Assembly (NCBI GenBank): GCA_003520555.1
Contig: DOUO01000128.1
Span: forward strand, 1-18,764
Source: Oscillospiraceae bacterium
Lineage (GTDB): Bacteria > Bacillota > Clostridia > Oscillospirales > Acutalibacteraceae
Reading direction: 5' to 3'
Length of the DNA stretch: 18,764 bases
Shown here: in pieces, positions 1-17,403 of the stretch
Numbering within the stretch: position 1 is the stretch's first letter
How the letters are laid out: every line of letters starts with the position of its first letter
Program-made: the position numbers and the translations under genes
Notes under the pieces: model-generated
Seen by the model: only the letters and a program-made list of their open reading frames with translations
The model's database searches: none
What the model was told of the DNA's origin: nothing

Positions 1-324
<324 letters not shown>

Positions 325-336
325 TTAAAAAAATAC

Positions 337-365
337 TTGCAAGAAACGTATAAAACTGCTATAAT
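337..365 (+). promoter_or_regulatory. Promoter of yajC (sigma-A type, extended -10)
   Basis: A -35 box TTGCAA (337-342) and a perfect -10 box TATAAT (360-365) are separated by 17 bases. TGC directly precedes the -10 and gives an extended -10. Transcription would start near 372, leaving a leader of about 24 bases before the yajC start. It lies just after the tgt stop codon, so yajC can be expressed separately from tgt. Confidence 0.75.
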
Positions 366-395
366 CTTAATAATTGTCAGAAAGGAATGAATGAT

Positions 396-803
396 ATGAA
401 TAATTTACCAATACTCGCTCAGGCTGACGGAGGCGCAGGCGGCGGATTCGGCATGTGGGGCATGATTGCGATTTACGCGCTTATCATTGTAGCCGTATAT
501 TTCTTCCTGCTCAGACCGAACTCAAAAAAGAAAAAAGAAGAAGCCGAGATGAGAAACTCACTTGAAATCGGCGACGATATCACAACTATCGGCGGAATTA
601 TGGGCAGAATCGTTGCCATCAAGGACGACGAGGACGCTATTATCATTGAAACAGGCTCAGACCGTGTTAAGATGAAGTTTAAAAAGTGGTGTATTTCTTC
701 GGTTGACACCGTTAAAGACAAAGGCGCGAACGCCGCACCCGAGAAAAAGAGCTTTTTCAGCCGTTTTAAAAAGAATGACGACGAAAACAAAACCGCTGAA
801 TAA
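396..803 (+). CDS. yajC: Preprotein translocase accessory subunit YajC
   Basis: YajC is a small single-span membrane protein that associates with the Sec translocon through SecDF. From the start chosen here the protein has 135 residues. It has a short Gly-rich N-terminus, one membrane helix at about residues 21-39, and then the family hallmark YFFLLRPNSKKKKEE. A compact soluble domain (IGDDITTIGGIMGRIVAI) and a charged, Lys-rich tail follow. I prefer ATG at 396 over the in-frame ATG at 387, because the ribosome site AAAGGA (381-386) sits right before 387 but about 9 bases before 396. secD and secF, frequent partners elsewhere, are not next to it here. The tgt-yajC order matches Bacillus and clostridia. 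A terminator-like hairpin follows the gene. Confidence 0.95.
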   Translation: MNNLPILAQADGGAGGGFGMWGMIAIYALIIVAVYFFLLRPNSKKKKEEAEMRNSLEIGDDITTIGGIMGRIVAIKDDEDAIIIETGSDRVKMKFKKWCISSVDTVKDKGANAAPEKKSFFSRFKKNDDENKTAE

Positions 804-832
804 TTAACAAATTACTTAGAATTTAATTTCAA

Positions 833-875
833 CTCCCTGAATATAATTTAGAAATTGTATTCAGGGGGATTTTTT
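833..875 (+). terminator. Terminator-like hairpin after yajC that also buries the next gene's ribosome site
   Basis: CCCTGAATATAATTT (835-849) pairs with AAATTGTATTCAGGG (852-866) with one G-U wobble. The pair can be extended outward by C833-G868 and a wobble at 834/867. The two-base centre means the innermost pairs must open to form a loop. Six T residues (870-875) follow, the layout of an intrinsic terminator. The ATG of the next gene is at 876, and its only ribosome site, AGGGGG (863-868), lies inside the right arm. The hairpin can therefore stop transcription and also block translation on any transcript that reads through. Confidence 0.7.
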
Positions 876-1274
876 ATGCAGGATAAAAGAAAGCTTGTAA
901 AAGCTGTTGCGGCAGGAACAATTTGTTCAATGCTTTGCAGTGTTATTTTGACCGCTGCTTTAGCGGCGGCAATAATGAGCGTCGGCTTGCTGCCGGACGA
1001 TATACTTATGTGGATAACCGTGGGGATTATGCTCGTAAGCGCTTTTGCCGGCGGTTTTATTGCCGCGAAAATCAACAAAGGCGCCGGAATTCCCGTTGGC
1101 GGACTCACAGGACTTGCGGTATTCTGCGCCGCCGCGCTGTCATCTTTTTCACGCGGCGAATCAAACGTTACTGTCATGATTCTTATTAAGCTTGCCGCGG
1201 CGGTTTTTGGCTCTGTCGCGGGAGGAATAACGGGAGTGCGGGAAAAACGCGGCTCTAAATACGGCAAATTTTAA
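876..1274 (+). CDS. TIGR04086/YrzE-like small integral membrane protein
   Basis: This is a 132-residue membrane protein with about four hydrophobic helices (roughly residues 8-35, 45-66, 73-92 and 100-122). Gly/Ala-rich stretches such as AFAGGFIAAKINKGAGIPVGG and GSVAGGITG are typical of the TIGR04086 family. Genes of this family lie beside tgt-yajC in clostridia, and yrzE holds the same place in Bacillus. No function is established and there are no catalytic motifs. The start at ATG 876 is favoured over an in-frame TTG at 855, because AGGGGG (863-868) sits 7 bases before 876 and the extra residues (MYSGGFF) are non-conserved in character. Family assignment rests on topology and neighbourhood as well as sequence flavour. 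Expression is probably held down by the hairpin that overlaps its ribosome site. Confidence 0.75.
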   Translation: MQDKRKLVKAVAAGTICSMLCSVILTAALAAAIMSVGLLPDDILMWITVGIMLVSAFAGGFIAAKINKGAGIPVGGLTGLAVFCAAALSSFSRGESNVTVMILIKLAAAVFGSVAGGITGVREKRGSKYGKF

Positions 1275-1277
1275 TTT

Positions 1278-1312
1278 CAGCCGACGGCTGTTATTCAAAT
1301 TATTCTTTTTTT
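1278..1312 (+). terminator. Weak hairpin after the TIGR04086-like gene
   Basis: CAGCC (1278-1282) pairs with GGCTG (1286-1290) around the loop GAC. A run of eight T residues comes only about 15 bases later (1305-1312). The stem is short and the T-tract is distant, so this is at best an inefficient terminator. Confidence 0.3.
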
Positions 1313-1408
1313 GACAGTAAACGGCGTGCCAAAACGCGCAATCTGTGTATGTAACGCTCAAGGGCAGGCAGATTATCCCAAAGGAATTAAATTTTATTGT
1401 AAAAACAG

Positions 1409-1437
1409 TGGAAAAATACAATTTATTATGCTATAAT
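1409..1437 (+). promoter_or_regulatory. Promoter of the pseudokinase gene (extended -10)
   Basis: A perfect -10 box TATAAT (1432-1437) is preceded by TGC, giving an extended -10. At 17 bases upstream is TGGAAA (1409-1414), a 4-of-6 match to TTGACA. Transcription would start near 1444, giving an AT-rich leader of about 70 bases before the AGGAG ribosome site at 1501-1505. I see no recognisable riboswitch in that leader. Confidence 0.7.
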
Positions 1438-1513
1438 AGAATGAATGAGATTTTAAAGAGATAAAAAGCGGGATTTGAAAAATAAACTTAGTTGTTTTAA
1501 AGGAGAAGTTTAA

Positions 1514-3718
1514 ATGGCAAAATTTAAATTACCCGAAGCTCTGATAGCTTGGAAGGTAGTATCGTCATTGCCCAATCGGAACGGTCACGACATGTACGAG
1601 GTTACACGCAGGGAAACCGACGGAACCGTTACCGAAGCGCAGATGGCGTACGTTGCTTTTCAGGGCGACGACTACAACAGCGACAATGTCAGGTTTATCG
1701 GCGACGAGGCAAAATTTATCCGCAACGTTATTGACTGCGGCGACGTGAGCACCTACATTGACGCGGAAGTGCTTGACAACCCGTCAAAAAACAAAATCGG
1801 GCTGTTTATTATTACAAGCCGTGACAAAACTCTTGAGGATGAACTTAAAAACCGTGAATTTTCCGAAGACGAGGTTATTGATTTCGGTCTGCAAATGAGC
1901 GACCTTTTGTCAAAACTTGAGGCAAAGGGTATTCTTCACGGCAATATCAAGCCCTCAAACATCTGCATAACCGAAAACGGAGAATACAGACTGAGAGGCT
2001 TCACTGATTTTGAAAGCACAATTGATGATTTATCATATATCGCTCCCGAAATAAAGGAAGAAGCTCAGCCCGATATTACAACCGACATCTATTCGCTCGG
2101 TCTGATTATGTACTCAATGTGCTCAAAGGGCGAAGTCCCCTTTGAGAGCGAAGGGTTAAGCCGTGATGAGGCAACGCAAAAGCGCCTTGAAAAGCAAAGC
2201 GTACCTGCTCCGCAGACCGGAAGCGAAAAACTTAAGAGCGTTATTGTAATTGCCTGCCAGCCGGAAAACGCCAACCGCTGGAAAAACGCGGGCAATCTTA
2301 AAAACGCGCTTGCTTCAATCAAAACCGAAAGCAAACCCTCAAACGAGCCGAAGCAGGAAATCATCCCCCCTGCCTCAACAGAGTTCGACGGAAATGTTTT
2401 CGAAGAATATGTTTACGACGATTTCGAGGAAGAAGAACCCGCGAAAAACACAGACAACAGCGCAGCCGCCGCAGGTGTTGCGGGCGTAGCGGGCGCCGTT
2501 GCCGCGGGAATCGCGGCAGGAGAGATTTCCCCCGAAGCTTCGTCAGAAGCAGCTGAAGCCGCCGAAGCTTCGCCGGAAGCAGGTGAAGCCGCCGAAAGCA
2601 CGCAGGAAGCGAAAGCCGACGAAGCCGTCGCGGAAAGCTCCGATGCGGCTGAAACGAAGCCTGTTGACGAACCCGAAATTGACAACAGAGTTTTTGACGA
2701 TTATCAGGTTCAGACCAAGGTATTCAGCATTAACGACGCCAAAAAAGAACCGGGCAAGGACTACGGCGATTACTTTGACGACGAGCCCGAGCCCGCACCC
2801 GAAAAACCCGAAGAAAGCAAGGACGTTGACACCGAGTTCGGCGAAAACGGATTTTATGAGGACAATTCCTTCTATGCCGAGCAAAACGAGGAAGAAAAAC
2901 GCAGCCGCAAAGGTATGATTATCGCCATTGTTTCGGCTGTTTTGGTTGTCGCGCTGCTTGCGGGTCTGGGCATTGCCGGAGCCGTAAACGGTTGGTTCGG
3001 CGGCAATAAGGAACCCAAGGAAACTCAGCCCTCAACCGAAATTTACACAGAGGACACCACTGCCGCTAAGGCAACCACTCAGCCCACTACCGTTCCGCCG
3101 ACAACTGTTGCTCCCACCACAGAAAGCATGTTTGATTACCCGATTGACGTTACCGGCGCGTATTACGATTACGCCAAGAGCGTGCTTGAGGAACAGGGCT
3201 ACAATGTTGTTGAGGGCGAATACGCCGACAGCGAATATTATGAGGAAGGCATTGTCACCTCAATGAGCGTAGACCCGGACGAGCCTCTTGAGATAGGCAG
3301 CACAATCGCGCTTAATATTTCATCGGGACTTATTGAGCCTACGGAGGAGCCCGAAGAAAACGGGGATAATAACGAGGATGAAAACGGCGGAGAGTCCGGC
3401 GAAAACCGCAGAAACCGTGAAGCGCCCCAAAGCGAGGACACCTCCTACAGCCAATATAAAAACAACACAAGCTATCTGTCTCAGTCAGAAGTAAATAATA
3501 TGAGCCGTTCTGAGCTTAACCTGGCTTTGAACGAAATATACGCACGCAGGGGAAGAATATTTAAAAGTTCTTCCCTTTCAAGCTATTTTAACTCTCAATC
3601 GTGGTATACTCCCAAGTACACGGAAGAAGAGTTTTCACGGAAAGTCACGCTGAATGACTACGAAAACAAAAACATTGATATGATTCTGGAAGCTCAGCAG
3701 AATAAAGGATACAGATAA
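1514..3718 (+). CDS. Membrane-anchored serine/threonine pseudokinase with PASTA and YARHG domains
   Basis: This 734-residue protein is laid out like a PknB/PrkC receptor kinase but lacks key catalytic residues. The kinase-like domain covers about residues 10-265. The catalytic loop reads HGNIKPSN (142-149) instead of HRDLKPxN, so Asp is replaced by Asn. DFG reads DFE (165-167), and no VAIK-type lysine is evident near AQMAYVAF. APE is kept (177-179). A disordered Ala/Glu-rich linker follows (about 310-380) with a 10-residue repeat, then an acidic stretch and one membrane helix (about 468-489). A Thr/Pro-rich stalk, one PASTA-like domain (about 540-605) and a C-terminal YARHG domain (YARRG at 676-680, then YFNSQSWY) complete it. 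The outer part would face the cell wall. The start is ATG with AGGAG 8 bases upstream. No PP2C phosphatase gene is adjacent. It probably acts as a signalling scaffold or wall sensor, not an active kinase; this is inference. Confidence 0.85.
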   Translation: MAKFKLPEALIAWKVVSSLPNRNGHDMYEVTRRETDGTVTEAQMAYVAFQGDDYNSDNVRFIGDEAKFIRNVIDCGDVSTYIDAEVLDNPSKNKIGLFIITSRDKTLEDELKNREFSEDEVIDFGLQMSDLLSKLEAKGILHGNIKPSNICITENGEYRLRGFTDFESTIDDLSYIAPEIKEEAQPDITTDIYSLGLIMYSMCSKGEVPFESEGLSRDEATQKRLEKQSVPAPQTGSEKLKSVIVIACQPENANRWKNAGNLKNALASIKTESKPSNEPKQEIIPPASTEFDGNVFEEYVYDDFEEEEPAKNTDNSAAAAGVAGVAGAVAAGIAAGEISPEASSEAAEAAEASPEAGEAAESTQEAKADEAVAESSDAAETKPVDEPEIDNRVFDDYQVQTKVFSINDAKKEPGKDYGDYFDDEPEPAPEKPEESKDVDTEFGENGFYEDNSFYAEQNEEEKRSRKGMIIAIVSAVLVVALLAGLGIAGAVNGWFGGNKEPKETQPSTEIYTEDTTAAKATTQPTTVPPTTVAPTTESMFDYPIDVTGAYYDYAKSVLEEQGYNVVEGEYADSEYYEEGIVTSMSVDPDEPLEIGSTIALNISSGLIEPTEEPEENGDNNEDENGGESGENRRNREAPQSEDTSYSQYKNNTSYLSQSEVNNMSRSELNLALNEIYARRGRIFKSSSLSSYFNSQSWYTPKYTEEEFSRKVTLNDYENKNIDMILEAQQNKGYR
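2534..2623 (+). repeat. In-frame 30-bp tandem repeat in the pseudokinase linker
   Basis: Two near-identical 30-base units (2534-2563 and 2564-2593, both starting GAAGCTTCG and ending GAAGCCGCC) are followed by a diverged third (2594-2623). They encode the 10-residue units EASSEAAEAA, EASPEAGEAA and ESTQEAKADE. The length is a multiple of three, so copy-number change would lengthen or shorten the linker without breaking the frame. Confidence 0.8.
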
Positions 3719-3735
3719 AAGGCTGGTTGTTTATA

Positions 3736-5460
3736 ATGAAAGACCTTATATTAAAGGCGCTGAAAAGCAAAATTCTGTTCGCGGCTGTAATAAACGCAGT
3801 CTTTGCCGCGGTAATTATTATTTTTACATCTTTTTCATATCTTGACAGCAAGGATTTTTACACTTCTACGCTGATTTGCAGAGACCATTTTTACTACAGC
3901 GGCACAATCAACTACATTCTTGCCGCGATTGTGGGTACCGTTCAGTATTCTATGCAGGATTTCAACTGCTTTGTACTGTTTCAAATTTTGGCTTCTTACG
4001 CGGCTTTTGTGTCCATTACCTTTGTTTTCGCGGACAAATACAATAAACGCAAGGCGTTTATTTTTACCGCTGTATTCAATATTATATACGCGCTGAACCA
4101 CTATTCGCAGGTCAGCAGCAAAAGCACCTCGGCGCTGCTGCTTTTGGGCGGCTTTATGTTGGTGCTCGGTGCAATTTACCACAAGCGCTACAGTCTTTCG
4201 TGCTGGCTGGGCGTGGTAGAAATTATTTTCGGTTCGTTCTTAAACTACCTGTATTTCTTCGTGGCGCTTGGCTTTGCCGTCGCGTTCTTCTTCGGAGATA
4301 TGATAGCTAAAAAGAAGTACCGTTTGCAGTTTCAAAAGTTCTTTTGGTATTCCCGCCCGTTCTTTTTGATGTTTCTGCTTGTTACCGCGCTTTGCATGGG
4401 ACTGGCTCAGTTCTCATATTCCGTTAACCACGCTACCTATGAAGCGGAAGAATATTACAGATATTCAACCGCCGCCGAAGCTGTTGATTCGCTTCCCTTC
4501 CCCGATTACAAGGAGCACACCGAGGAATTTAAGCAGGCCGGAATTGACACGGAATCAAAATACGAGGTCTTTAAGCAGGGTTACTACGACGCGGACAAAA
4601 AGCTTGACACCGACGCTATTGAGGCGGTAAACAAAATTCAGCTCGCGGAGGTCAGAAGCAAGCCTGCCTACGCGCTTGACTCAATGTTTATGGACTTTTA
4701 CGCCCATATTCAAAATCCGGACACAACGTTTATCGCCATGCTTGTATACATCGCGATTTCAATAATATTTATTATTTACCACAAAAACCGATTCAGTTTC
4801 TTTCCGCTGTTTTATTTCTTGGCAGGAATTATAACCTGTATTGTTCTGAGGCTGTTCCTGTTTATCAACAGCGCGGTGCTGTACGGTGTGCTGATGTTTA
4901 TGCTGGCGCTTTTGATGAATTCGTTTAACTTTGAAATTCAAAGAAGCGAAAAGCCCTCGTCAAAGCTCAGACAAAGCAACGGATACTTGATTATTTCGTC
5001 AATCGCCGTAATTTTGGTAGGCGTTATTAACGTGTTTGTGTTCTTCAACAGCCTTCCCACGGTCAACTACAACAATGTGCCCGAAAGCCTGATTTCCGAT
5101 ATAAACCGAAATCCCGACTGCTACTACGTTATTGACACGGCTACCGAAAAGGATTTTGTCCAATATACCGAAAATTACCTTCACCCTATGTGGGGCTTCA
5201 GAAACGAATACCTTGAAAATCTTGACAGCTTCGGATATTTCCACAACAGCGACATGTTGAGAAGAAGGTACTTGCCTGAGAATATTTACGAAGCGGTGAT
5301 GACCAACCGCAAGATTTACGTAATTGATAAAAACATTGTTTTCCGCAAGGAAAACTACCTCACCGAAAACTACGCCGACCCGAACAGCTATGTTTCCTAT
5401 GAACAGGCAAACGAGCTTGACGGTTACAAAATTTATGAGGTTAAGCAGTACGAAAAGTAA
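3736..5460 (+). CDS. Multi-spanning membrane protein of unknown function (GT-C-like topology)
   Basis: I do not recognise this family. The protein (about 574 residues) has a first helix at about residues 13-33 followed by a polar loop with an acidic motif (SYLDSKDFY). Some six more helices follow to about residue 225. Next come a hydrophilic region of roughly 100 residues (Glu/Asp/Lys-rich), about four further helices and a C-terminal soluble domain of about 120 residues rich in Tyr and Asn. A helix bundle with a short acidic first loop and a soluble tail resembles GT-C glycosyltransferases or wall-polymer enzymes, but no diagnostic motif was found. It starts 17 bases after the pseudokinase stop and is probably co-transcribed with it. 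The start is uncertain: ATG 3736 has AAAAGG (3717-3722) 13 bases upstream, while an in-frame TTG at 3727 has it 4 bases upstream. A strong terminator follows. Confidence 0.8.
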   Translation: MKDLILKALKSKILFAAVINAVFAAVIIIFTSFSYLDSKDFYTSTLICRDHFYYSGTINYILAAIVGTVQYSMQDFNCFVLFQILASYAAFVSITFVFADKYNKRKAFIFTAVFNIIYALNHYSQVSSKSTSALLLLGGFMLVLGAIYHKRYSLSCWLGVVEIIFGSFLNYLYFFVALGFAVAFFFGDMIAKKKYRLQFQKFFWYSRPFFLMFLLVTALCMGLAQFSYSVNHATYEAEEYYRYSTAAEAVDSLPFPDYKEHTEEFKQAGIDTESKYEVFKQGYYDADKKLDTDAIEAVNKIQLAEVRSKPAYALDSMFMDFYAHIQNPDTTFIAMLVYIAISIIFIIYHKNRFSFFPLFYFLAGIITCIVLRLFLFINSAVLYGVLMFMLALLMNSFNFEIQRSEKPSSKLRQSNGYLIISSIAVILVGVINVFVFFNSLPTVNYNNVPESLISDINRNPDCYYVIDTATEKDFVQYTENYLHPMWGFRNEYLENLDSFGYFHNSDMLRRRYLPENIYEAVMTNRKIYVIDKNIVFRKENYLTENYADPNSYVSYEQANELDGYKIYEVKQYEK

Positions 5461-5464
5461 TATA

Positions 5465-5499
5465 AAAACCGCCGTTTCCTTATCGGTTACGGCGGTTTT
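5465..5499. terminator. Bidirectional intrinsic terminator between convergent genes
   Basis: AAAACCGCCGT (5465-5475) and ACGGCGGTTTT (5489-5499) are perfectly complementary over 11 bp around a 13-base loop. The A-run on one side and T-run on the other give a U-tract in both directions. It can end both the pseudokinase/membrane-protein transcript and the convergent RluA-family transcript whose stop is at 5549. Confidence 0.9.
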
Positions 5500-5548
5500 C
5501 CGATTTTCATTAATAATCAGTTTTTCTGCTTTCTGACAGAGAATAGTA

Positions 5549-6412
5549 TCATTTTATCAGTTTTTGCATATCCTGCGGCATACGCGCGGATATGCTTATT
5601 TTTTTACCTGTCACGGGATGCGAAAAGCTCATGAGTCCACAGTGCAGGGCTTGGCGGTTGATTTTTTCACGGCTTCCGCCGTACAACTCGTCACCCAAAA
5701 GCGGATAACCGATACTGCTCATATGACAGCGAATTTGGTGCGTCCTGCCTGTTTCAAGCCACAGGCGCAAAAGCGTGCAGTCTTTTCCCGTGCTCTCAAC
5801 GCTGTAATGCGTGACGGCAGGCGTTCCTCCGCTTAAAACATGACGGACTATTTTTGATTCGGGCGTAACTCCTATCGGAGCGTTTATTGTGCCGCCGTTT
5901 TGAACAATACCGTGAACAACGGCAAAATATTCCTTATAAACGGCATTTTTAAGCTTATTGACCGTGAACCTGTCCTTTGCGATGAGCACAAGTCCCGAGG
6001 TGTCGCGGTCAAGACGGTTCAGCGCGCGGAAAACGTAGTCCTCTCCCCTTTGACGGCTGTAAAACGCGGCGATGTTCGCCAGGGTATCGGTTTGGTGCTG
6101 TTTAACGGGATGAACGGGCATGAACGGCGGCTTATTGACAACCAGTATATGGCTGTCCTCAAAGGCAACGTCAAGGCTGCCCTCAACGGGCAAAATGCTC
6201 ATTTGCTCGCTTGGCAGGGTAACTGTGATTTCCGCTTTCGCTCGCACCGGGTCAATGCTCCGCAAAATTTTTCCGTCCATCAAAATACCGTCTTTTTCTC
6301 GCTTGAGCTGTGTTATCATTCTTGTAGACAATCCGCAGCGGCTTTTCAAAAACCACTTTGCGGTCATGCCGTCACATTCGTCGGGCACGGTAAAGGTTAG
6401 CTTTTCAGGCAT
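5549..6412 (-). CDS. RluA-family rRNA/tRNA pseudouridine synthase
   Basis: This enzyme isomerises specific uridines in RNA to pseudouridine. The 287-residue protein has an S4-like RNA-binding region at about residues 12-65 and then the RluA-type catalytic domain. Visible motifs are NKPPFMPVHP (93-102), the catalytic block NRLDRDTSG (132-140) with nucleophile Asp135, ETGRTHQIRCHM and YPLLGDELYGG. The usual HRLD motif is NRLD here. The start is taken at ATG 6412 because GGAGG (complement of 6420-6424) lies 7 bases upstream; an in-frame TTG at 6433 would place that ribosome site inside the gene. It overlaps the stop of the DUF1294 gene by 8 bases, so the two are translationally coupled. The exact RNA target (RluA, RluC or RluD type) cannot be told from sequence. 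Confidence 0.92.
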   Translation of the reverse strand: MPEKLTFTVPDECDGMTAKWFLKSRCGLSTRMITQLKREKDGILMDGKILRSIDPVRAKAEITVTLPSEQMSILPVEGSLDVAFEDSHILVVNKPPFMPVHPVKQHQTDTLANIAAFYSRQRGEDYVFRALNRLDRDTSGLVLIAKDRFTVNKLKNAVYKEYFAVVHGIVQNGGTINAPIGVTPESKIVRHVLSGGTPAVTHYSVESTGKDCTLLRLWLETGRTHQIRCHMSSIGYPLLGDELYGGSREKINRQALHCGLMSFSHPVTGKKISISARMPQDMQKLIK

Positions 6413-6677
6413 GGAAAAACCTCCAAACGACAAACGCGGCTCCGAGCTGCAAAAGGATGATTACGGGAATTCCGACCATGAATTTGGGATGGCGGATTTT
6501 GTGTCTGATTAACAGCATTGTCAACAGCATTGCCGCGCTGCCGCCCAAAGCGGCAAAAATAAGCAGTGTTCTTTCCCTTATTCTGCGGCTGTGTCTTATT
6601 GCCTTTATTTTATCCGCAACGGTAATTATAATCGAGATTAAGCTTATCGCCGCAAGGTAAATTAATAAATATTTCAT
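6405..6677 (-). CDS. DUF1294 small membrane protein
   Basis: This 90-residue protein has helices at about residues 3-20, 37-58 and 68-86. The DUF1294 signature is readable: ADKIKAIRHSRRIRERTLL, then ALGGSAAMLL, then RHKIRHPKFMVGIPVI. Function is unknown in the family. The start at 6677 is supported by GGAGAA (complement of 6681-6686) a few bases upstream. Its 3' end overlaps the RluA-family gene by 8 bases. It starts only 23 bases from the divergent gene at 6701, so its promoter must lie within that neighbour's coding region. Confidence 0.88.
   Translation of the reverse strand: MKYLLIYLAAISLISIIITVADKIKAIRHSRRIRERTLLIFAALGGSAAMLLTMLLIRHKIRHPKFMVGIPVIILLQLGAAFVVWRFFHA
6627..6632 (+). promoter_or_regulatory. 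Possible -10 box for the GHL10-like gene, inside the divergent DUF1294 gene
   Basis: A perfect TATAAT hexamer lies about 70 bases before the plus-strand start at 6701, within the opposite-strand DUF1294 coding region. The matching -35 position (6604-6609, TTTATT) is poor. It is noted because the 23-base gap between the divergent genes leaves no room for a promoter. Confidence 0.35.
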
Positions 6678-6700
6678 AATTTCTCCGAAGGATGATGTAA

Positions 6701-7927
6701 TTGAAGCATAAAAGTTTTATTCCTGCCGTGCTGTCGGCGGCTTTGCTTGCGTCGGCAATTGCGGTAAGCGCGTTTTACGGCTCCGGCAAAGAACCCGCGG
6801 TTCAGACCATTAGCGCTCAAACGCCCGATTCCGCCGAAAAAACCGAGGATGAAATGAAGGGCGTCTGGATTACATACATGGAGCTTGGAATGGAGCACGA
6901 GAAGGACAAAAGCGAAAAAGCTTTTACGCGAAAGTTTGAAGCTATTGCCGAAACCTGCAAAAGCTTTGGCTTTAATACTCTTATTGTTCAGGTGCGTCCG
7001 TTTTGCGACGCGCTGTACAAATCAAGCTACTTTCCGTATTCGCATGTTTTAACGGGCGTTCAGGGGAAAAATCCGGGATACGACCCTTTGAGCATTATGT
7101 GCCGCGTCAGCCGTGAGAACAACATGAAAATTCACGCGTGGGTAAATCCTTACAGGATTTCTTATAATAACGTACCGAAAAAGCTGTGCGGCGGCAATCC
7201 GTATATCAGGGACAAAAGCCTTGGCATTGAAACAGACTCCACGCTGTTTTTGAACCCGTCAAGCGAAAAGGCGCAAGCCCTGATTGAGAACGGCGTGGCG
7301 GAGCTTGTAAAAAATTATGATATTGACGGCGTGCAGTTTGACGATTATTTTTATCCGCCCGACACGGAAAACGAGGATATTGACAGCTACAACAATTATC
7401 GCGAAACATCCGAAGGCGAGGTTATGAGCCTTGAGGAATGGCGCAAAGCGAATATCAACCTGCTGATGGCGAGGTGCTTTATCGCTGTGCATAAAAACGG
7501 CAACAACGCCGTTTTCGGCATTTCTCCGCAGGGCAACCTTGAAAATAACGCCGAGCTGTTTGCCGATGTTAAAAGCTGGTGCGCCGCGCGCGGCTACTGC
7601 GATTACATTTGTCCGCAGATTTATTTCAGCCTTGACAACCCGGCTTTGGGCTTTGAGGAGGCGTTGAACGAATGGTGCGCCCTGGATTTGAACGGTAAAA
7701 CGAGGCTTTACGCCGGTCTTGCCGGCTACAAGGCAGGCACCGACGACGACGAAGGCACGTGGGAATACAGCGACAATGTGCTGTCGAGCGAATATAATAT
7801 TCTTAAAAAAAATAATAAAGTCAGCGGAATAATGCTTTACAGCTATTCAAGCCTGATAAATGATGAGGCAAAAAAGGAAATGAACAACTTAAAGAAACAG
7901 CTTTACAGCAAAACTCCGCCGCAATAA
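6701..7927 (+). CDS. Secreted GHL10/DUF187-type glycoside hydrolase-like protein
   Basis: This 408-residue exported protein has a signal peptide or N-terminal anchor (MKHKSFIPAVLSAALLASAI) and a low-complexity spacer to about residue 50. A TIM-barrel domain of the glycosyl hydrolase-like 10 (DUF187) family follows. Visible motifs are KGVWITYMELG near residue 54, FNTLIVQVRPFCDALY, HAWVNPYR, then DGVQFDDYFYPP with the acidic pair D214-D215, and CPQIYFSLDN. Homologues act, or are thought to act, on peptidoglycan or other surface polysaccharide. The substrate here is unknown. It starts at TTG 6701: AAGGAT (6688-6693) is 7 bases upstream, the ATG codons at 6692 run into a stop, and the signal peptide begins directly at this codon. 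Its last 25 bases overlap mtaB tail-to-tail. Confidence 0.88.
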   Translation: MKHKSFIPAVLSAALLASAIAVSAFYGSGKEPAVQTISAQTPDSAEKTEDEMKGVWITYMELGMEHEKDKSEKAFTRKFEAIAETCKSFGFNTLIVQVRPFCDALYKSSYFPYSHVLTGVQGKNPGYDPLSIMCRVSRENNMKIHAWVNPYRISYNNVPKKLCGGNPYIRDKSLGIETDSTLFLNPSSEKAQALIENGVAELVKNYDIDGVQFDDYFYPPDTENEDIDSYNNYRETSEGEVMSLEEWRKANINLLMARCFIAVHKNGNNAVFGISPQGNLENNAELFADVKSWCAARGYCDYICPQIYFSLDNPALGFEEALNEWCALDLNGKTRLYAGLAGYKAGTDDDEGTWEYSDNVLSSEYNILKKNNKVSGIMLYSYSSLINDEAKKEMNNLKKQLYSKTPPQ

Positions 7928-9195
7928 TCGTCGTAAGCCTTAACAAGCCTGACTTTTTGTATTGTCGAACAAAGCGAGGCGTCATCGCTTTCAACGTGTA
8001 CCGGAGTGTAGTTTTTTGTGTAGCCTTCAAGATAGCCGTGACGCAGCCGCTCAAACAGCACCTCTTCCTCAAGTCCGACCTGTGACCGCAAAAAATCGCG
8101 GCGCGATTCATCCGTCAGCGCTGTCATTCGCTTTGCGCGCTGTTCCTTCACAGAAGGATTTACCTGATTAGGCGCGTCAGCCGCCTTTGTGCCTCTGCGT
8201 TGAGAATAAGGAAAAACATGAACCTTGGCAAAGCCGACTTCCTTTACAAACTGCATTGAGCTTTGGAAATCCTCCTCTGTTTCTCCGGCAAAGCCGACCA
8301 TTACGTCGGTGGTAATCGCGGCGTTTTTAAAGCTGTCGCGAAGCCTGTTTACTATTTCCATGTATTTCGCGGAGGTGTAATGCCTGTTCATTGCCTTTAG
8401 GGTGTTGTCGCAGCCGCTTTGCAGCGATAAGTGAAACTGCGGACAAAATTCAGGCTGAGCGGAAAGCCTTTTTACCATTTCTTCATCCATGCGCTCGGGT
8501 TCAATTGAGCCGAGACGCACGCGTTCTATTCCGTCAACAGCGCATGCCGCTTCAACAGCGTCGGCAAGGTTAAAGCCTTCGTTCAGGCCGTATGCCGAAA
8601 GGTTTATTCCGACCAAAACCACCTCGCGATAACCGCTTAAGGCTACGTTTTCAAGCTCGCGTTTTAAATCATCAAGAGGCTTTGAACGCACTCTGCCGCG
8701 CGCGTAAGGGATAATGCAGTAAGAACAGAAGCGGTTGCAGCCGTCCTCGATTTTGATAAACGCGCGCGTGTGTTCGCCGAAGGAAGATACGCTGAGGCTT
8801 TCGTATTCAAAGTTTTTATTTTCATGAAGCGAAATGTCGGTAAACGGGTTATTATCGTTAAGAAACTTCTCGATTGAAGGAATAAGCTTTTTCCTCTGCT
8901 TATTGCCCAAAATTATGTCACACTCGGTAAACCGCTTCATTTCATCGGGAAAAGCCTGCGGCATACAGCCGGTAAGCACAATTACCGCCGAAGGATTGTT
9001 GCGGCGTATGCGGCGGATCAGCTTGCGGTTTTTCGCGTCGCTGACCGAGGTCACCGTGCAGGTATTGATGATAAAAATGTCGGCAAAATCCTTGTTTTCC
9101 GCCTGAGAATAGCCGTGCGCGAGCATGTCCTCGCGCATTGCTTCGGATTCGTATTGGTTAACCTTGCAGCCGAGGGTAACTATATTAAAATTCAT
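7903..9195 (-). CDS. mtaB: tRNA t6A37 methylthiotransferase MtaB
   Basis: MtaB is a radical-SAM enzyme that adds a methylthio group to N6-threonylcarbamoyladenosine at position 37 of ANN-decoding tRNAs, giving ms2t6A. The 430-residue protein shows the full architecture. The N-terminal UPF0004 domain has the three cluster cysteines C10 (TLGCKVNQYES), C46 (NTCTVTS) and C77 (TGCMPQ). The radical-SAM motif is C-x3-C-x2-C at 153/157/160 (DGCNRFCSYCIIPYARGR), and a C-terminal TRAM-like region ends the protein. TLGCKVNQYESE and the overall length favour MtaB over MiaB or RimO. AAGGAAG (complement of 9205-9211) lies 9 bases before the start. Its 3' end overlaps the convergent gene by 25 bases with no terminator between them. 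Confidence 0.95.
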   Translation of the reverse strand: MNFNIVTLGCKVNQYESEAMREDMLAHGYSQAENKDFADIFIINTCTVTSVSDAKNRKLIRRIRRNNPSAVIVLTGCMPQAFPDEMKRFTECDIILGNKQRKKLIPSIEKFLNDNNPFTDISLHENKNFEYESLSVSSFGEHTRAFIKIEDGCNRFCSYCIIPYARGRVRSKPLDDLKRELENVALSGYREVVLVGINLSAYGLNEGFNLADAVEAACAVDGIERVRLGSIEPERMDEEMVKRLSAQPEFCPQFHLSLQSGCDNTLKAMNRHYTSAKYMEIVNRLRDSFKNAAITTDVMVGFAGETEEDFQSSMQFVKEVGFAKVHVFPYSQRRGTKAADAPNQVNPSVKEQRAKRMTALTDESRRDFLRSQVGLEEEVLFERLRHGYLEGYTKNYTPVHVESDDASLCSTIQKVRLVKAYDDYCGGVLL

Positions 9196-9253
9196 TATTA
9201 TGTTCTTCCTTTTTATTGAAAATGTTGAAATTACAATTTTTTAATATTTTTGA

Positions 9254-9282
9254 TTGATAAATCATCGAAATAGTGCTATTAT
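9254..9282 (+). promoter_or_regulatory. Promoter of the HPr-like gene (extended -10)
   Basis: TTGATA (9254-9259) and TATTAT (9277-9282) are 17 bases apart, and TGC precedes the -10 box. Transcription would start near 9289, leaving about 40 bases of leader before ATG 9331. A small inverted repeat, TGATT-GATA-AATCA (9251-9264), covers the -35 box and could be an operator half-site; that part is speculative. Confidence 0.7.
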
Positions 9283-9330
9283 TATATTGTTAAGGACAAG
9301 TATGTAATAATTTTTGAGGTGAGCATAAAT

Positions 9331-9573
9331 ATGTACAGCGTACCGATTTCGGCTATTAACAAAAACGGTTTAATTGAAATATTTGAGACACTCGCTCAGT
9401 TTCCCAATGTTATGATGATTAAAAACGGTGATTACACCGTTGACGCCCATTCGCTTATCGGTGTTTTTTCACTTGATATAAACAAACCGCTTGAGATTAT
9501 TCTGGATGAAGCTCCCGATATGGAGTTTATGAACGCCGTTTCCAAATTTATTCCGGCTCAGCAGGTTTCATAA
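9331..9573 (+). CDS. HPr-like (Crh-like) domain protein lacking the phospho-histidine
   Basis: This 80-residue protein aligns with the PTS phosphocarrier fold. NKNGLIEIFETL matches the HPr active-site helix N-x-x-G-[LI]-H-A-R-P-A, and DAHSLIGVFSLD matches the regulatory segment N-x-K-S-I-x-G-V-x-S-L. In HPr, His15 receives phosphate from enzyme I; here the matching residue is Ile15. Ser41 aligns with the HPr-kinase target Ser46 and is kept. This is the pattern of Bacillus Crh (Gln15, Ser46), which has a regulatory role and not a sugar-transport role. A catabolite-signalling role is inferred. GTG 9319 is in frame, but GAGGTGA (9316-9322) is correctly spaced for ATG 9331, so the shorter form is chosen. 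The gene stands alone between its own promoter and terminator. Confidence 0.8.
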   Translation: MYSVPISAINKNGLIEIFETLAQFPNVMMIKNGDYTVDAHSLIGVFSLDINKPLEIILDEAPDMEFMNAVSKFIPAQQVS

Positions 9574-9591
9574 TTTAACGCAAATCAATTT

Positions 9592-9624
9592 GGTTCAAAG
9601 CCGTTTCGGTTTTGAACCTTTTTT
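9592..9624 (+). terminator. Intrinsic terminator of the HPr-like gene
   Basis: GGTTCAAAGCCG (9592-9603) pairs with CGGTTTTGAACC (9607-9618) over 12 bp with one wobble and a TTT loop. TTTTTT (9619-9624) follows. It works on the plus strand; on the minus strand there is no T-run after the stem. Confidence 0.9.
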
Positions 9625-9637
9625 ATTTTTGCCGCAT

Positions 9638-9730
9638 AAATTTAGGGTTCGGTTTCAACCGAGCCGCAGGTCAGGCGCCATATGCCTGTTCAAAGCCCGC
9701 GGTCGGTCAAGACGCGACCCCTACAAATTC
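9638..9730. repeat. Small repeat-like element with inverted ends and three hairpins
   Basis: A 93-base GC-rich block lies between the HPr-like terminator and the hisE end. Its ends are roughly inverted (AAATTTAGGGTT against the complement GAATTTGTAGGGGTC). Inside are three hairpins: 9646-9654 with 9657-9665, CAGGC/GCCTG (9672-9676 with 9684-9688), and GGTCGGTC pairing with GAC-g-CGACC (9701-9719). Composition differs from the AT-rich flanks. The layout resembles dispersed intergenic palindromic elements of gut Firmicutes. It is also the only structured sequence downstream of the his operon, so it may serve as its 3' end. Confidence 0.5.
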
Positions 9731-9751
9731 TTTAATGAATTATTTGTTAAA

Positions 9752-10084
9752 TTAAGTATTCTTGTCAACAACGTGGAAGGTCTTGAGGTTGCCTGTTTTT
9801 TCGCTGCGCTTTTCAAGCTCCGCAAGCACGTCCTCAAGCGGTATTCCCTGCTGAACCATCATAACCGTAAGGTGATAAATAAGGTCGGCTATCTCATAAA
9901 CGGTTTCGCTGTTGTCCCCGTTTTTCGCGGCGATAATGGTTTCGCTGCACTCCTCGCCCACCTTCTTCAAAATTTTGTCAATGCCCTTGTCAAGCAAATA
10001 GCAGGTGTATGAGCCTTCCTTGGGATTGTCTCTTCTGTTTTCAACCGTTGCGTACAATGCCGCAAGCACTTCTCTATCGTTCAT
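9752..10084 (-). CDS. hisE: Phosphoribosyl-ATP pyrophosphatase
   Basis: HisE hydrolyses PR-ATP to PR-AMP and pyrophosphate, the second step of histidine synthesis. The 110-residue protein is an all-alpha MazG-fold domain with the magnesium-binding block KKVGEECSETIIAAK, the second acidic helix ETVYEIADLIYHLTVMM, and the N-terminal RRDNPKEGSYTCYLL. It is separate from HisI here; the two are fused in many bacteria. It starts 12 bases after the hisI stop with GAGGT upstream. It is the last gene of the operon. Confidence 0.95.
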   Translation of the reverse strand: MNDREVLAALYATVENRRDNPKEGSYTCYLLDKGIDKILKKVGEECSETIIAAKNGDNSETVYEIADLIYHLTVMMVQQGIPLEDVLAELEKRSEKTGNLKTFHVVDKNT

Positions 10085-10096
10085 AAAAATTTACCT

Positions 10097-10411
10097 CTAT
10101 ACTAATTTTTTGAAAAAGCAGCTGTGATTTCCCGTGTGGCAGGCTGCTCCCGTTTGCTCAACAATCACAAGCAGGGTGTCGTCGTCGCAGTCGGCGTAAA
10201 GCTCGACAACCTTTTGAAGATGTCCCGAGGTCGCGCCCTTGTTCCAAAGCTCTTTGCGGCTTCGCGACCAAAACCAGGTGTAGCCTGTTTCAAGCGTTTT
10301 TTGCAGGCTTTCGCGGTTCATATACGCGAGCATAAGAACCTCTCCGGTTGACTTTTCCTGCACAACGGCGGGAATAAGGTCTGCTTTTACAAAATATTTT
10401 TCCAAATCCAT
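10097..10411 (-). CDS. hisI: Phosphoribosyl-AMP cyclohydrolase
   Basis: HisI opens the adenine ring of PR-AMP, the third step of the pathway, as a zinc-dependent dimer. The 104-residue protein carries the full set of motifs: [27 protein letters not shown], the magnesium/zinc block DCDDDTLL, and [11 protein letters not shown] with the metal-binding Cys and His. Length is normal for a monofunctional HisI. It begins 10 bases after hisA ends, with AAGGAT overlapping the hisA stop region, so coupling to hisA translation is likely. Confidence 0.96.
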
Positions 10412-10421
10412 ATTGTTATCC

Positions 10422-11141
10422 TTAAATTCTGGCTGTCATTTCAATAGCCTGTTTTAAATCAATTGTGCCGCTGTAAATTGCCTTGCCGCAGATTGCCCCG
10501 TAAATATCGAGGTCTGAAAGATTGATTAAATCCTTGAGCACGGCAACGCCGCCGCTGGCGATGATATTGCAGCCCACCTCATGGGTGAGGTCGTCAAGCT
10601 GTTTTAAGTTCGGGCCCGCGAGCGTGCCGTCCTGGTCGATGTCCGTAAAAACAATTGTCTGAACTCCGACATCCTCCATACGCTTTGCAAGCTCGATATA
10701 ATTGATGTCGGAGCTGTCAAGCCAGCCCTCGGCGCGAACCATACCGTTTTTGGCGTCTATTCCGACTACAATCTTATCGCCGTATTCTCTTACCGCGTCT
10801 ACAACGAGCTGTTGATTTTTAACCGCCGCAGAACCGAGAATTACACGGTTGACTCCGCTCGAAAGGTAGTATTCAACGGCGCGCATATCACGGATTCCGC
10901 CGCCTACCTCAACTGACAGCCCCGAGGCTTTGGCTACGTCGGCAATTAAACCGGCGTTAACAAGCCTTGCGTCCTTAGCGCCGTCCAAATCCACCATATG
11001 CATCCATTCCGCTCCTGCGCGGGCAAACTGTTCAGCCGCCTTGTACGGGGATTCGCAAACCTGATGGGCTGTGGAATAGTCGCCCTTTACAAGGCGAACG
11101 CAGTTTCCGTCCTTTATGTCAATCGCGGGTAAAATTATCAT
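10422..11141 (-). CDS. hisA: ProFAR isomerase (HisA)
   Basis: HisA converts ProFAR to PRFAR by an Amadori rearrangement, the fourth step. The 239-residue (beta/alpha)8 barrel begins [17 protein letters not shown] with catalytic Asp8. The opposite-half catalytic Asp lies in [16 protein letters not shown]. The phosphate-binding loops VEVGGGIRD and [10 protein letters not shown] and the loop [14 protein letters not shown] are intact. The last motifs are of the HisA kind, not HisF. The start lies one base from the hisB stop, with GGAGT inside the hisB 3' end. The next enzyme, HisF/HisH, is not encoded nearby. Confidence 0.96.
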
Positions 11142-11142
11142 A

Positions 11143-11721
11143 TTAAAGCACTCCTTTTGTTGAAAGAGGTTTGCCGCTGTCGTTTTGCTTTACCGCAAGG
11201 CGCAGCGCGTGAGCCGCCGCCTTGTACAGCGCTTCGGTGATGTGATGCGAATTGGCGCCGTAAAGCGATTTTAAGTGAAGCGTGATTCCTGAGTTGAAGG
11301 CAAGCGCGCGCATAAATTCCACCGTCATTGAGCAATCATAGCCGCCGCAGCGCTCCTGCGGAAACTCCGCGTCAAAAACCAAAAACGGTCTGCCGCTTAC
11401 ATCAACGGAGGCAAAGGCAAGGGCTTCGTCCATGGGAACATAAAAGCTGCCGAAGCGTTCGATTGAGCTTTTGTCGCCCAGGGCTTCGGCAAACGCCTTG
11501 CCGAGCACAATGCCCGTATCCTCAACGGTGTGGTGTTCGTCAACATATAAATCACCCTTCACGGATACACGCAGTCCGAAGCCGCCGTGAGTCGCGAAGG
11601 AATTGAGCATGTGGTCAAAAAATCCCACGCCCGTGTCAATTGACACCTCGCCGCCGTCAAGACTGAGGCTGAGAGTGATGTCGGTTTCCTTTGTTTTTCT
11701 TTCAATGTGTGAGGTTCTCAT
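11143..11721 (-). CDS. hisB: Imidazoleglycerol-phosphate dehydratase
   Basis: This enzyme dehydrates imidazoleglycerol phosphate to imidazole-acetol phosphate, using manganese sites in a 24-subunit shell. The 192-residue protein is the monofunctional form, without the phosphatase domain of enterobacterial HisB. Metal-binding motifs are clear: GFFDHMLNSFATHGGF, DEHHTVEDTGI, and NSHHITEALYKAAAHALR. The FDAEFPQERCGGYD segment is also typical. It starts 4 bases after the hisC stop; GGGTGA (complement of 11726-11731) acts as ribosome site and overlaps that stop. hisA follows after one base, in the spot where hisH usually sits. Confidence 0.96.
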   Translation of the reverse strand: MRTSHIERKTKETDITLSLSLDGGEVSIDTGVGFFDHMLNSFATHGGFGLRVSVKGDLYVDEHHTVEDTGIVLGKAFAEALGDKSSIERFGSFYVPMDEALAFASVDVSGRPFLVFDAEFPQERCGGYDCSMTVEFMRALAFNSGITLHLKSLYGANSHHITEALYKAAAHALRLAVKQNDSGKPLSTKGVL

Positions 11722-11725
11722 ATTA

Positions 11726-12775
11726 TCACCCGAAAAAATTATTCAGCGCGTTTACGGTCAGCTCCACCTCATATTCGGTGCCTGCGGTGATTCGCAGATA
11801 ACCGCCCATTAAGCGCACTACAATTGACTTTTCCTTTAGGTATTCCCAAATTTCAGCCGCGCGGTCTGTTTTAATAAATACAAAATTCGCGACGCTTGGA
11901 TAAACCGTGAAATCTTCCTGCTTTTCAGCTATGGTTTTCAATTCATTATACAGCTTTTCACGGTTATTTACAATAGTTATTTTTCTTTTATGCAAATATT
12001 CTTTATTTTTATAGATTACTTCGCCTATCGCCTGTGAAATACTGTTGACATTGTACGGCGATTTTACAGCCTTTATTGCCCTGGAAATAACCGGATTAGC
12101 GACGGCAAAGCCAAGCCTTAACGCCGCGCAGCCGACAGCCTTTGACGCGGTGCGGAACACTATCAGATTATCATATTTCTCAACCTCTTTGATAAGGCTT
12201 TCGTCCCAGAAGTCCATGTAGGCTTCGTCAAGGATAACCAGCGCGTCAGTGTTTTTTACCAGCCTGCGCGCTTCATCCGCGGTCATTCCCCTTCCGGTCG
12301 GATTGCACGGATTTGAAAACAGCAGAAGCTTTATATTGTCGCCGTTCAGCTTTTTGATAAGCGCGTCAACGTCAATTTCAAGGCTTTCGTTCTTTAAAAA
12401 CGAATCACATTCCACCTCGCAAATTGAGGAATAAAAGCGGTACATTGAAAAATCCGGGGACACAACAAGCATTTTGTCGCCCTTTTCAAGAAAAGCGGAT
12501 TCGATTAAGAAAATCAGCTCGTCCGAACCGTTGCCTGCCGTAACAAGCTCGGGCTTGATATCGTAAAATTCCGCAAAAGAATTAACAAGGCTTTCCGCCA
12601 ACGGGTCGGGATAGCGATTGTATGAAATTTTTTTAATTGCGGCGTCAATTTGCCGCCTGATATCGTCAGGCAGATTGTCCGGACATTCGTTGGCGTCAAG
12701 ACGTATTTCATATGTGCCGCTGATTGGCTCGTATGGCACAAGCTCCCTGATTTTATTGTTAAGTGAGTAACTCAT
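11726..12775 (-). CDS. hisC: Histidinol-phosphate aminotransferase
   Basis: HisC is a PLP enzyme of fold type I that transaminates imidazole-acetol phosphate to histidinol phosphate. The 349-residue protein has the N-terminal substrate motif RLDANECPDNLP. It also shows GNGSDELI (phosphate pocket), SNPCNPTGRGM (154-163), DEAYMDF (183-189), the Schiff-base Lys212 in RTASKAVGCAALRLGF, and the C-terminal arginine region RLMGGYLRITAGT. It lies 12 bases after hisD with AGGA upstream. Within a his operon the HisC role is secure, though relatives can also act on aromatic keto acids. Confidence 0.95.
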   Translation of the reverse strand: MSYSLNNKIRELVPYEPISGTYEIRLDANECPDNLPDDIRRQIDAAIKKISYNRYPDPLAESLVNSFAEFYDIKPELVTAGNGSDELIFLIESAFLEKGDKMLVVSPDFSMYRFYSSICEVECDSFLKNESLEIDVDALIKKLNGDNIKLLLFSNPCNPTGRGMTADEARRLVKNTDALVILDEAYMDFWDESLIKEVEKYDNLIVFRTASKAVGCAALRLGFAVANPVISRAIKAVKSPYNVNSISQAIGEVIYKNKEYLHKRKITIVNNREKLYNELKTIAEKQEDFTVYPSVANFVFIKTDRAAEIWEYLKEKSIVVRLMGGYLRITAGTEYEVELTVNALNNFFG

Positions 12776-12787
12776 ATTTTTCCTGCC

Positions 12788-14080
12788 TTAGTCAAGGTCA
12801 AATCGAACCTTGATTGAATTTGCGTGAGCCGTCAGCCCTTCGGTGTCGGCAAAGCGGATAACGTCCTCGGCGTCAGCCCTGAGCGCGTCCTCAGTGTAAT
12901 AAATGAAGCTTGATTTTTTAATGAAGCTGTCAACCGAAAGCGGTGAAAAGAAACGCGCCGTGCCGCTTGTGGGTAAAACGTGATTGGGGCCGGCAAAATA
13001 GTCGCCCAAGGGTTCGGGACTGTAATTGCCGAGGAACACCGAACCGGCGTTGTCAAGTTTGCCGATGTATTCCATCGGGTTTTCACAGCAAACCTCAAGG
13101 TGTTCGGGGGCAAGCTCATTGGCAAAGTCCACCGCCTGAGTCATGTTGCTGCATACAATTATCGCGCCGAAATTGTCAAGAGAGGACTCGATAATTTCCC
13201 TGCGTTCAAGCTTTTGCATTTGGATTTCAAGCTCAGCCTTGGTTTTTTCCGCGATTTCGGCGGAATCCGTAAGCAATATTGCCGAAGCAAGCTTGTCGTG
13301 CTCGGCCTGGCTCATGAGGTCTGCGGCAAGGAATTTGGGATTGGCGGTTTTATCAGCCACAATCAATATCTCGCTGGGGCCCGCAATCATGTCGATATCA
13401 ACGGTGCCGTAAAGCAGCTTTTTGGCGGTGGCAACAAAGATATTGCCCGGACCTACAATTTTATCAACCTTGGGTACGGTCTCCGTTCCGTAAGCCAATG
13501 CCGCCACAGCCTGAGCTCCGCCCATAAGGAAAACACGGTCAACGCCTGCGGTTTTTGCCGCGGCGATAATATTGGGGTTGGGGGTACCGTCCTTCTGCGG
13601 AGGAGTAACCATGATTATTTCCTCAACTCCGGCGATTTTTGCGGGAATTGCGTTCATGAGCACCGAAGAAGGATAAGCCGCCGTGCCGCCGGGGACGTAA
13701 ATTCCGACGCGCTTTAAACCGCGAACCCTCTGCCCCATTATTACACCGTTTGATTTGGTGGTAAGCCAGCTTTGCTGAAGCTGTCTTTTGTGGAAGTCGG
13801 CTATGTTTGCCGCCGCCTTTTTGACGGTTTCAAGATATGACCCGTCGCATTTTTCAATAAGCGCGTCAATTTCATTTGCGGAGATTTCGGCGTTTTCGGG
13901 AGCCTTTCCGTCAAACCTGATTGTGTAATCCCTTACAGCGCTGTCGCCGTTTTCGCGCACATTGTCAATAATTTCCTGAACAGTGGGAATTACGTTTTTG
14001 TCGGAATTCTGCGCCCTTTTTTTAAGATATTCAATAAACTCATATTCCTTTGAGCCGTCTGCCGTTACAGTTGTAATCAT
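12788..14080 (-). CDS. hisD: Histidinol dehydrogenase
   Basis: HisD oxidises histidinol to histidine with two NAD+, the last two steps of the pathway. The 430-residue length is normal. Conserved stretches are KRVGIYVPGGTAAYPSSVLM, VGPGNIFVATAK, DMIAGPSEIL, the zinc-ligand block SQAEHD (258-262), the catalytic pair Glu326-His327 in APEHLEV, and PEPLGDYFAGPNHVLPTSGT. The ATG overlaps the hisG stop (ATGA, 14077-14080), and GGAGG (complement of 14091-14095) lies 10 bases upstream. Confidence 0.97.
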   Translation of the reverse strand: MITTVTADGSKEYEFIEYLKKRAQNSDKNVIPTVQEIIDNVRENGDSAVRDYTIRFDGKAPENAEISANEIDALIEKCDGSYLETVKKAAANIADFHKRQLQQSWLTTKSNGVIMGQRVRGLKRVGIYVPGGTAAYPSSVLMNAIPAKIAGVEEIIMVTPPQKDGTPNPNIIAAAKTAGVDRVFLMGGAQAVAALAYGTETVPKVDKIVGPGNIFVATAKKLLYGTVDIDMIAGPSEILIVADKTANPKFLAADLMSQAEHDKLASAILLTDSAEIAEKTKAELEIQMQKLERREIIESSLDNFGAIIVCSNMTQAVDFANELAPEHLEVCCENPMEYIGKLDNAGSVFLGNYSPEPLGDYFAGPNHVLPTSGTARFFSPLSVDSFIKKSSFIYYTEDALRADAEDVIRFADTEGLTAHANSIKVRFDLD

Positions 14081-15875: not shown

Positions 15876-15889
15876 ATATTCCTCTCATT

Positions 15890-15915
15890 ACTTTAGTATG
15901 ATAACACTTTAGTAT
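15890..15915 (-). promoter_or_regulatory. Candidate his operator: two 10-bp direct repeats at the transcription start
   Basis: Read on the minus strand, ATACTAAAGT occurs twice (complements of 15906-15915 and 15890-15899), 16 bases apart. The first copy overlaps the -10 box and the likely start site; the second follows. Each core ACTAAAGT is nearly palindromic (ACT-AA-AGT). The position suits a repressor. No T-box fits, since the leader is only about 30 bases. A TrpR-family HisR/YerC type regulator is one possible binder, but that is inference. Confidence 0.6.
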
Positions 15916-15942
15916 ATTACCATAATAAAACAATCCTGTCAA
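15914..15942 (-). promoter_or_regulatory. Promoter of the his operon (near-consensus, extended -10)
   Basis: On the minus strand, TTGACA (complement of 15937-15942) and TAATAT (complement of 15914-15919) are separated by exactly 17 bases, and TGG precedes the -10. The -35 is a perfect match. The start site should be near 15907, giving a leader of about 32 bases to hisZ. Confidence 0.88.
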
Positions 15943-15952
15943 GACATAGCTT

Positions 15953-15975
15953 GGGGAGACCGCGAAGGTCTCCCC
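15953..15975. terminator. GC-rich hairpin between the permease gene and the his promoter
   Basis: GGGGAGACC (15953-15961) and GGTCTCCCC (15967-15975) form a perfect 9-bp stem. It sits 12 bases past the permease stop, where a terminator for that minus-strand gene would be. However, the downstream minus-strand sequence is AAGCTATG, with no U-tract. T-rich sequence follows only on the plus strand, where no gene is read. On the minus strand the loop is TTCGC. It may stabilise the mRNA end or act as an inefficient terminator. Confidence 0.55.
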
Positions 15976-15987
15976 TTCTTATAATTT

Positions 15988-17391: not shown

Positions 17392-17403
17392 AAAAGTACC
17401 TCC

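Follow-up and report, generated by a model that had tools for sequence, protein, structure and literature searches.

A PASTA–YARHG receptor with a predicted pseudokinase domain, encoded beside a membrane protein of predicted GT-C fold in clostridial genomes

The available part of a review (PMC12599244) gives mechanisms for no more than a handful of bacterial pseudokinases, namely MviN, EssB/YukC, SidJ, SdjA and SelO, and names the families ActPs1-3, GLW, CP1, DYD and DLHK. In mycobacteria, the pseudokinase tail of MviN (MurJ) is phosphorylated by PknB and recruits FhaA, according to the accessible portions of two sources (PMC12599244, PMC11898655); degraded catalytic motifs and a shortened activation loop are described there for ActPs3 and MviN (PMC12599244). 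The order kinase, PASTA, YARHG has been reported for one Firmicutes protein, D4L881, which was taken as a phosphorylating kinase, in a paper whose available text also proposes that YARHG binds peptidoglycan (Coggill and Bateman 2012, PMC3355149). Here we describe a receptor with this domain order but a degenerate kinase domain, and the membrane protein encoded by the next gene, in a stretch of 18,764 nucleotides from an Oscillospiraceae bacterium (contig DOUO01000128.1, positions 1 to 18,764, assembly GCA_003520555.1; the whole stretch is called the window).

A preliminary description of the locus had proposed a receptor composed of a kinase-like domain, linker, single membrane helix, Thr/Pro stalk, one PASTA repeat and a terminal YARHG domain, and both the open reading frame and this layout stood up to Pfam searches and structure prediction. 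Three Pfam families score over cut-off: Pkinase (52.6 bits, E 5.7e-14, residues 92-257), PASTA (29.5 bits) and YARHG (PF13308; 70.2 bits against a cut-off of 27, E 1.5e-19). The AlphaFold2 model has a two-lobed kinase fold (predicted local distance difference test, pLDDT, mostly >90), one long helix, folded PASTA and YARHG domains and a mostly disordered linker, and the outer PASTA domain follows one membrane helix, as in active PASTA kinases.

The protein resembles PrkC, PknB and Stk1 in its N-terminal kinase fold (its best structural matches), its one membrane helix and its outer PASTA domain, but it lacks the catalytic set, has only one PASTA and ends in YARHG. It scores 87.4 bits against the NCBIfam model for PASTA kinases (NF033483), below the cut-off of 450, and in our tree it groups with other clostridial kinases, not with PrkC. 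With MviN/FhaA and ActPs3 it has in common a kinase fold without motifs, tied to an envelope membrane protein, and a shortened activation loop. In contrast to MviN, the membrane protein here, of predicted glycosyltransferase-C (GT-C) fold, is encoded by a separate gene, and the pseudokinase carries an outer PASTA–YARHG part of its own; with one membrane helix and no flippase domain it is not a flippase fusion of the MviN type (ActPs3 was compared by description). As far as the available descriptions go, four of the named families do not match the protein: the motifs of ActPs3 and GLW differ, CP1 lacks a membrane region, and DYD is described as having lost the alpha-C Glu with HRD and/or DFG retained. 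D4L881, from Firmicutes, is likened to the window protein by domain order alone.

Judged from its aligned residues, the kinase domain is a pseudokinase, as the preliminary description had held. At the columns of the beta-3 Lys, the HRD Asp and the DFG Asp the window protein has Ala, Asn and Gly, its Gly-loop is degenerate as well, and its activation segment is approximately 11 residues shorter than that of PrkC in the alignment with intact kinases. Of the three losses named earlier, HGN for HRD and the missing ATP-binding lysine hold, as does the retained APE, whereas ‘DFG is DFE’ was a register error. The DFG columns fall on G162-F163-T164 (RLRGFT); DFE lies three residues later, at a poorly conserved place (DAES or AFEN in many relatives), and was rejected as the DFG equivalent.

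These changes are shared by the relatives. A search that scored 7990 candidates gave 964 homologues at E <= 1e-3, and 116 of the best 120 of these 964 carry Pkinase, PASTA and YARHG in precomputed annotation. The alignment took in 152 sequences, these 120 proteins and 32 loci (9 of 41 loci gave no start), from which a pattern removed P0022 and P0001, the latter matching the window at 100%. In the 150 relatives the HRD columns read His and Gly throughout, followed by Asn in 145, Ser in 3 and Lys and Asp in 1 each. The DFG Asp is replaced by Gly in 148 and by Ser and Ala in 1 each, with the Phe invariant, and the beta-3 column holds Arg (94), Thr (48), Leu (4), Lys (2), Ile (1) or Ala (1). The alpha-C Glu (E65 in the window) and the APE Glu are present in all 150. 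Because this set is redundant, we repeated the count on 32 representatives (<80% identical), and HGN, whose conservation in orthologues the preliminary description had proposed to survey, was found in 29; the catalytic Asp is kept in one (L004), the Lys in one (L005) and the DFG Asp in none. Phosphotransfer has very probably been lost on this sequence evidence, and Mg-ATP binding with it.

The full-length protein was sought in genome samples of unstated completeness. Among 200 genomes sampled at family level, 199 have a match at E <= 1e-3, but a full-length match occurs only in G002, and the next best (1.2e-42) is partial. Among 100 genomes of the genus, 38 match at E <= 1e-60; one of these, G218, carries an intact-kinase sister, which leaves 37. 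Eleven named loci belong to Ruminococcus bromii YE282, Ruminococcaceae bacterium P7 and assemblies of uncultured Ruminococcus, Clostridiales or Clostridia. A plasmid-borne gene finds no support: none of the 78 matching plasmid records covers 80% of the query, and the best 5 of the 78 are partial matches to the kinase region with 25.6-28.9% identity.

The gene is maintained despite the loss of its catalytic residues. Nine coding-sequence pairs, in which several dS values are >1, give the kinase domain a ratio of nonsynonymous to synonymous substitution rates (dN/dS, Nei–Gojobori) of 0.04-0.19, so the domain is under purifying selection. This ratio is lower than that of the linker in seven of the eight pairs with a computable linker value, the exception being the window and L007 (0.19 versus 0.16). 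Sixteen of 17 coding sequences are full length (697-897 amino acids) and the seventeenth, L001, reaches the end of its contig; one internal stop interrupts the match in 2 of the 37 genus-sample genomes (G245 and G295).

One partner gene accompanies the pseudokinase constantly. The preliminary description had suggested the downstream membrane protein as a candidate partner, and the genus sample supports this: its gene is present in all 37 genomes with the pseudokinase and adjacent in 36, the remaining one being broken by a contig end. No Pfam family scores over cut-off for the partner, which has a predicted GT-C fold. The catalytic acid of GT-C enzymes lies in their first outer loop, where the partner has Asp40. 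The partner is likened to the GT-C glycosyltransferases ArnT, Pmt, AftA and STT3/PglB by this fold and by the invariant Asp after the first transmembrane helix (TM1), at 5-13% identity. Two distant homologues (L118:2381-4117 and L119:1924-3717) lie within surface-polysaccharide clusters; at the conserved Asp they read DD, against KD in the window protein. From the predicted fold and the company of these homologues, the partner is likely to be a GT-C enzyme that decorates a surface glycan with a sugar taken from a lipid carrier.

A living kinase of the same layout points to how the catalytic set was lost. The G218 protein contains Pkinase (94.1 bits), PASTA and YARHG by Pfam, and retains GSGLYGTVY, VAKH, HGDIKPEN and ADFG. 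We took as its family the 30 best-scoring proteins in a search with it, after which the score drops from 578 to 221 bits. All 30 have DFG and 29 the Gly-loop pattern; 26 read HGD and the other 4 HGN. The beta-3 Lys is present in 8 of 8 sequences read at that column, and 29 of 30 have all the domains by precomputed annotation. The sister and pseudokinase profiles align over their whole length (618 columns, E 2e-67). A tree of 56 rows unites the pseudokinases in a single clade (100/100) whose stem is long (2.65), and places the HGD kinases next to it as its sister group (89/82, not starred). Relatives with an intact set, which the preliminary description had taken as a sign of an active or divergent kinase, therefore exist in part: a sister of the same layout keeps the set but forms a separate clade, so that it marks the loss as derived rather than the window protein as active. 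The pseudokinase lineage probably arose from a PASTA–YARHG kinase of which the intact sister survives, and the simplest history is that one lineage lost catalysis and became linked to the GT-C gene. Four members of the sister family (P0251, P0252, P0255 and P0256) have HGN yet retain the Gly-loop and DFG, so that the Asn change can occur alone and is a possible first step of the loss. Among the 100 genus genomes, the sister occurs only in G212 and G218, neither of which has the pseudokinase (a third listed, G268, is a pseudokinase match at 35% identity); with counts of only 2 and 37 of 100, this non-overlap is uninformative. The sister gene of G218 and a homologue of the GT-C partner are on different contigs.

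The reading that we consider moderately probable is that the protein is a PASTA/YARHG wall sensor that controls the GT-C enzyme by direct contact, without phosphotransfer. The outer PASTA and YARHG domains would sense the state of the peptidoglycan, their presumed ligand. The kinase-fold domain would work as a protein-binding module and, with the linker, relay the wall signal by contact to the product of the next gene; we infer this contact, and the direction of control, from the constant pairing and from selection. The GT-C enzyme would then add a lipid-linked sugar to a surface glycan, the sugar and the acceptor being putative, and wall status would thereby set glycan addition. More tentatively, and with a little less confidence than doubt, we propose the whole as a two-gene unit in which the receptor gates a surface-glycan transferase by direct contact through a dead kinase domain; PASTA wall sensing would have shed phosphotransfer and been redirected to an enzyme, while sister species still have an intact kinase with this layout.

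The linker raises a rather unlikely alternative, in which the protein is a phospho-scaffold like MviN: the active PASTA kinase of the same cell would phosphorylate a linker Thr of the T-K-V-F type and an FHA protein, perhaps an FHA–FtsW/RodA fusion, would dock there, steering peptidoglycan synthesis besides or instead of the GT-C partner. Of 35 pseudokinase linkers, 23 contain the motif T-x-[VI]-[FIL]. They hold 28 sites where shuffled sequences would lead one to expect 4.34, although shuffles ignore shared descent, and in most aligned rows that have the motif the site is at one common place. Among the intact sisters 23 of 30 have it, or 7 of 14 once near-copies are thinned out, and two kinase-less PASTA–YARHG proteins have it as T-x-[VI]-F before the membrane helix (SETRVF and DVTKIF). 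The motif is absent from 12 of 35 linkers, from 7 of the 14 thinned sisters and from the R. bromii-type P0057. A second linker motif, [KD]DYG[DSN][YF]F, is present in 31 of 35 linkers, and KDYG is invariant in 15 aligned sequences. The kinase-less proteins (L078:1480-2589, L079:1237-2466 and L081:1024-2397) consist of zinc-ribbon cysteines, a membrane helix, PASTA and YARHG, as called by Pfam for L078 and L079 and by eye and a profile match for L081.

Proteins that could serve such a scaffold were sought in 11 relatives’ genomes. The preliminary description had asked whether a separate active PASTA kinase exists, and a complete PrkC-operon kinase with intact motifs is indeed encoded in 9 of the 11; G008 has a fragment, none was found in G003, and Pfam confirmed the PASTA repeats in one genome. 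A fusion of FHA with FtsW/RodA (SEDS) is present in 11 of 11 (75-100% identity, tblastn), and the example on L042 (978-2663), assigned by Pfam, is a candidate for a phospho-Thr reader attached to a wall polymerase. The precedent, by analogy, is the MviN tail with PknB and FhaA as described in the available parts of the two sources cited above. Because FHA is present in every genome examined, its co-occurrence is uninformative, and no FHA gene was seen by eye among the open reading frames beside the pair. The one open-access match joining the FHA domain, FtsW and a PASTA kinase is mycobacterial. A phospho-Thr/FHA step is thus possible, but weaker than control of the GT-C partner by contact.

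The same intact kinases would be needed if the pseudokinase paired with active PrkC through its N-lobe and tuned its activity. The closest folds are Stk1 and PknB, the alpha-C Glu is preserved, and back-to-back dimers are known for MviN and some canonical kinases (PMC12599244, available part). Allosteric pairing nevertheless leaves the tight link to the GT-C gene unexplained, the pseudokinase gene lies outside the prkC operon, and a different degenerate PASTA protein is found there; we regard it as improbable.

That operon protein, of approximately 545 amino acids, follows a thiN-like gene (L070:7504-9147, L071:384-2033, L032:1072-2709 and others) and has zinc-ribbon cysteines, a kinase-like domain, a membrane helix and two PASTA domains, with HYA for HRD (8 sequences) and GF or GY for DFG. 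A sequence pattern recovered it in 10 of 21 loci. In 10 of the 11 relatives’ genomes a frame of its size shares a contig with PrkC or a fragment of PrkC, and G003 has one after a thiN-like gene; the profile of the operon protein matches 85 of 100 wider-family genomes at E <= 1e-50. We rejected it as a close paralogue of the window pseudokinase because the tree places it with PrkC, though its branch there is very long (6.55). This placement suggests that PASTA pseudokinases arose twice.

A divergent but active kinase with unusual residues is highly improbable. In its favour are the intact fold, a single orthologue that still has HGD, the frequent Arg at the Lys column and the existence of repurposed pseudokinases such as SelO (PMC12599244, available part), but the window protein has lost the catalytic Asp, the DFG Asp, the Lys and the Gly-loop together, and the DFG Asp is missing in 150 of 150 relatives. 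Decay as a pseudogene, for which the lost residues, the long stem and the two internal stops might speak, is ruled out for practical purposes by the low dN/dS and the full-length coding sequences.

The features of the locus are collected in Table 1. The promoter ahead of the pair, with 10 of 12 matches, is weak because comparable sites number 10 in the scanned 4.5 kb against 5.9 (standard deviation 3.0) expected. Upstream of the pair (window 13-1274) are the end of tgt, yajC and a DUF3792 membrane protein; tgt is upstream in six of the nine relatives’ loci that show that side, and not in L002, L003 and L009.

Table 1. Coordinates of the pseudokinase gene, its partner and associated signals in the window
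Feature	Positions	Strand	Remarks
Sigma-70-like promoter	1409..1437	+	TGGAAA-17-TATAAT, TG before -10; ahead of gene pair; weak
Ribosome-binding site AGGAG	1501..1505	+	8 bases 5' of ATG; read from sequence
PASTA–YARHG pseudokinase gene	1514..3718	+	ATG open reading frame, 734 amino acids
Pseudokinase domain	1535..2338	+	residues ~8-275
HGN replacing HRD	1937..1945	+	residues 142-144
GFT replacing DFG	1997..2005	+	residues 162-164; DFE is residues 165-167
Cytoplasmic linker	2339..2908	+	mostly disordered (pLDDT <50 over most); conserved short motifs
TKVF, candidate phospho-Thr docking motif	2714..2725	+	residues 401-404; putative function
KDYGDYF linker motif	2756..2776	+	residues 415-421
Single membrane helix	2909..2986	+	residues 466-491; AlphaFold2 model, hydrophobic sequence
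PASTA domain	3146..3322	+	residues 545-603; Pfam
YARHG domain	3461..3697	+	residues 650-728; Pfam
Partner, membrane protein of predicted GT-C fold	3736..5460	+	574 amino acids from ATG 3736; 17 bases 3' of pseudokinase stop
Partner Asp40, just after TM1	3853..3855	+	invariant in 39 sequences and two distant homologues

Pseudokinase control of an envelope enzyme is a kind already known, of which this pair would be a variant. Among the open-access matches listed, no title describes a pseudokinase/GT-C pair; matches joining a pseudokinase with a GT-C glycosyltransferase are unrelated by title, those on YARHG include none on a pseudokinase by title and opening of the abstract, and nothing was found on a pseudokinase in Ruminococcus bromii. 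In this family a dead receptor kinase whose outer part is of the wall type, a single partner gene that is constant and a living sister of the same layout together make the step from enzyme to adaptor directly testable. If the proposed control is correct, PASTA sensing would govern a surface glycan enzyme in gut bacteria, including Ruminococcus bromii.
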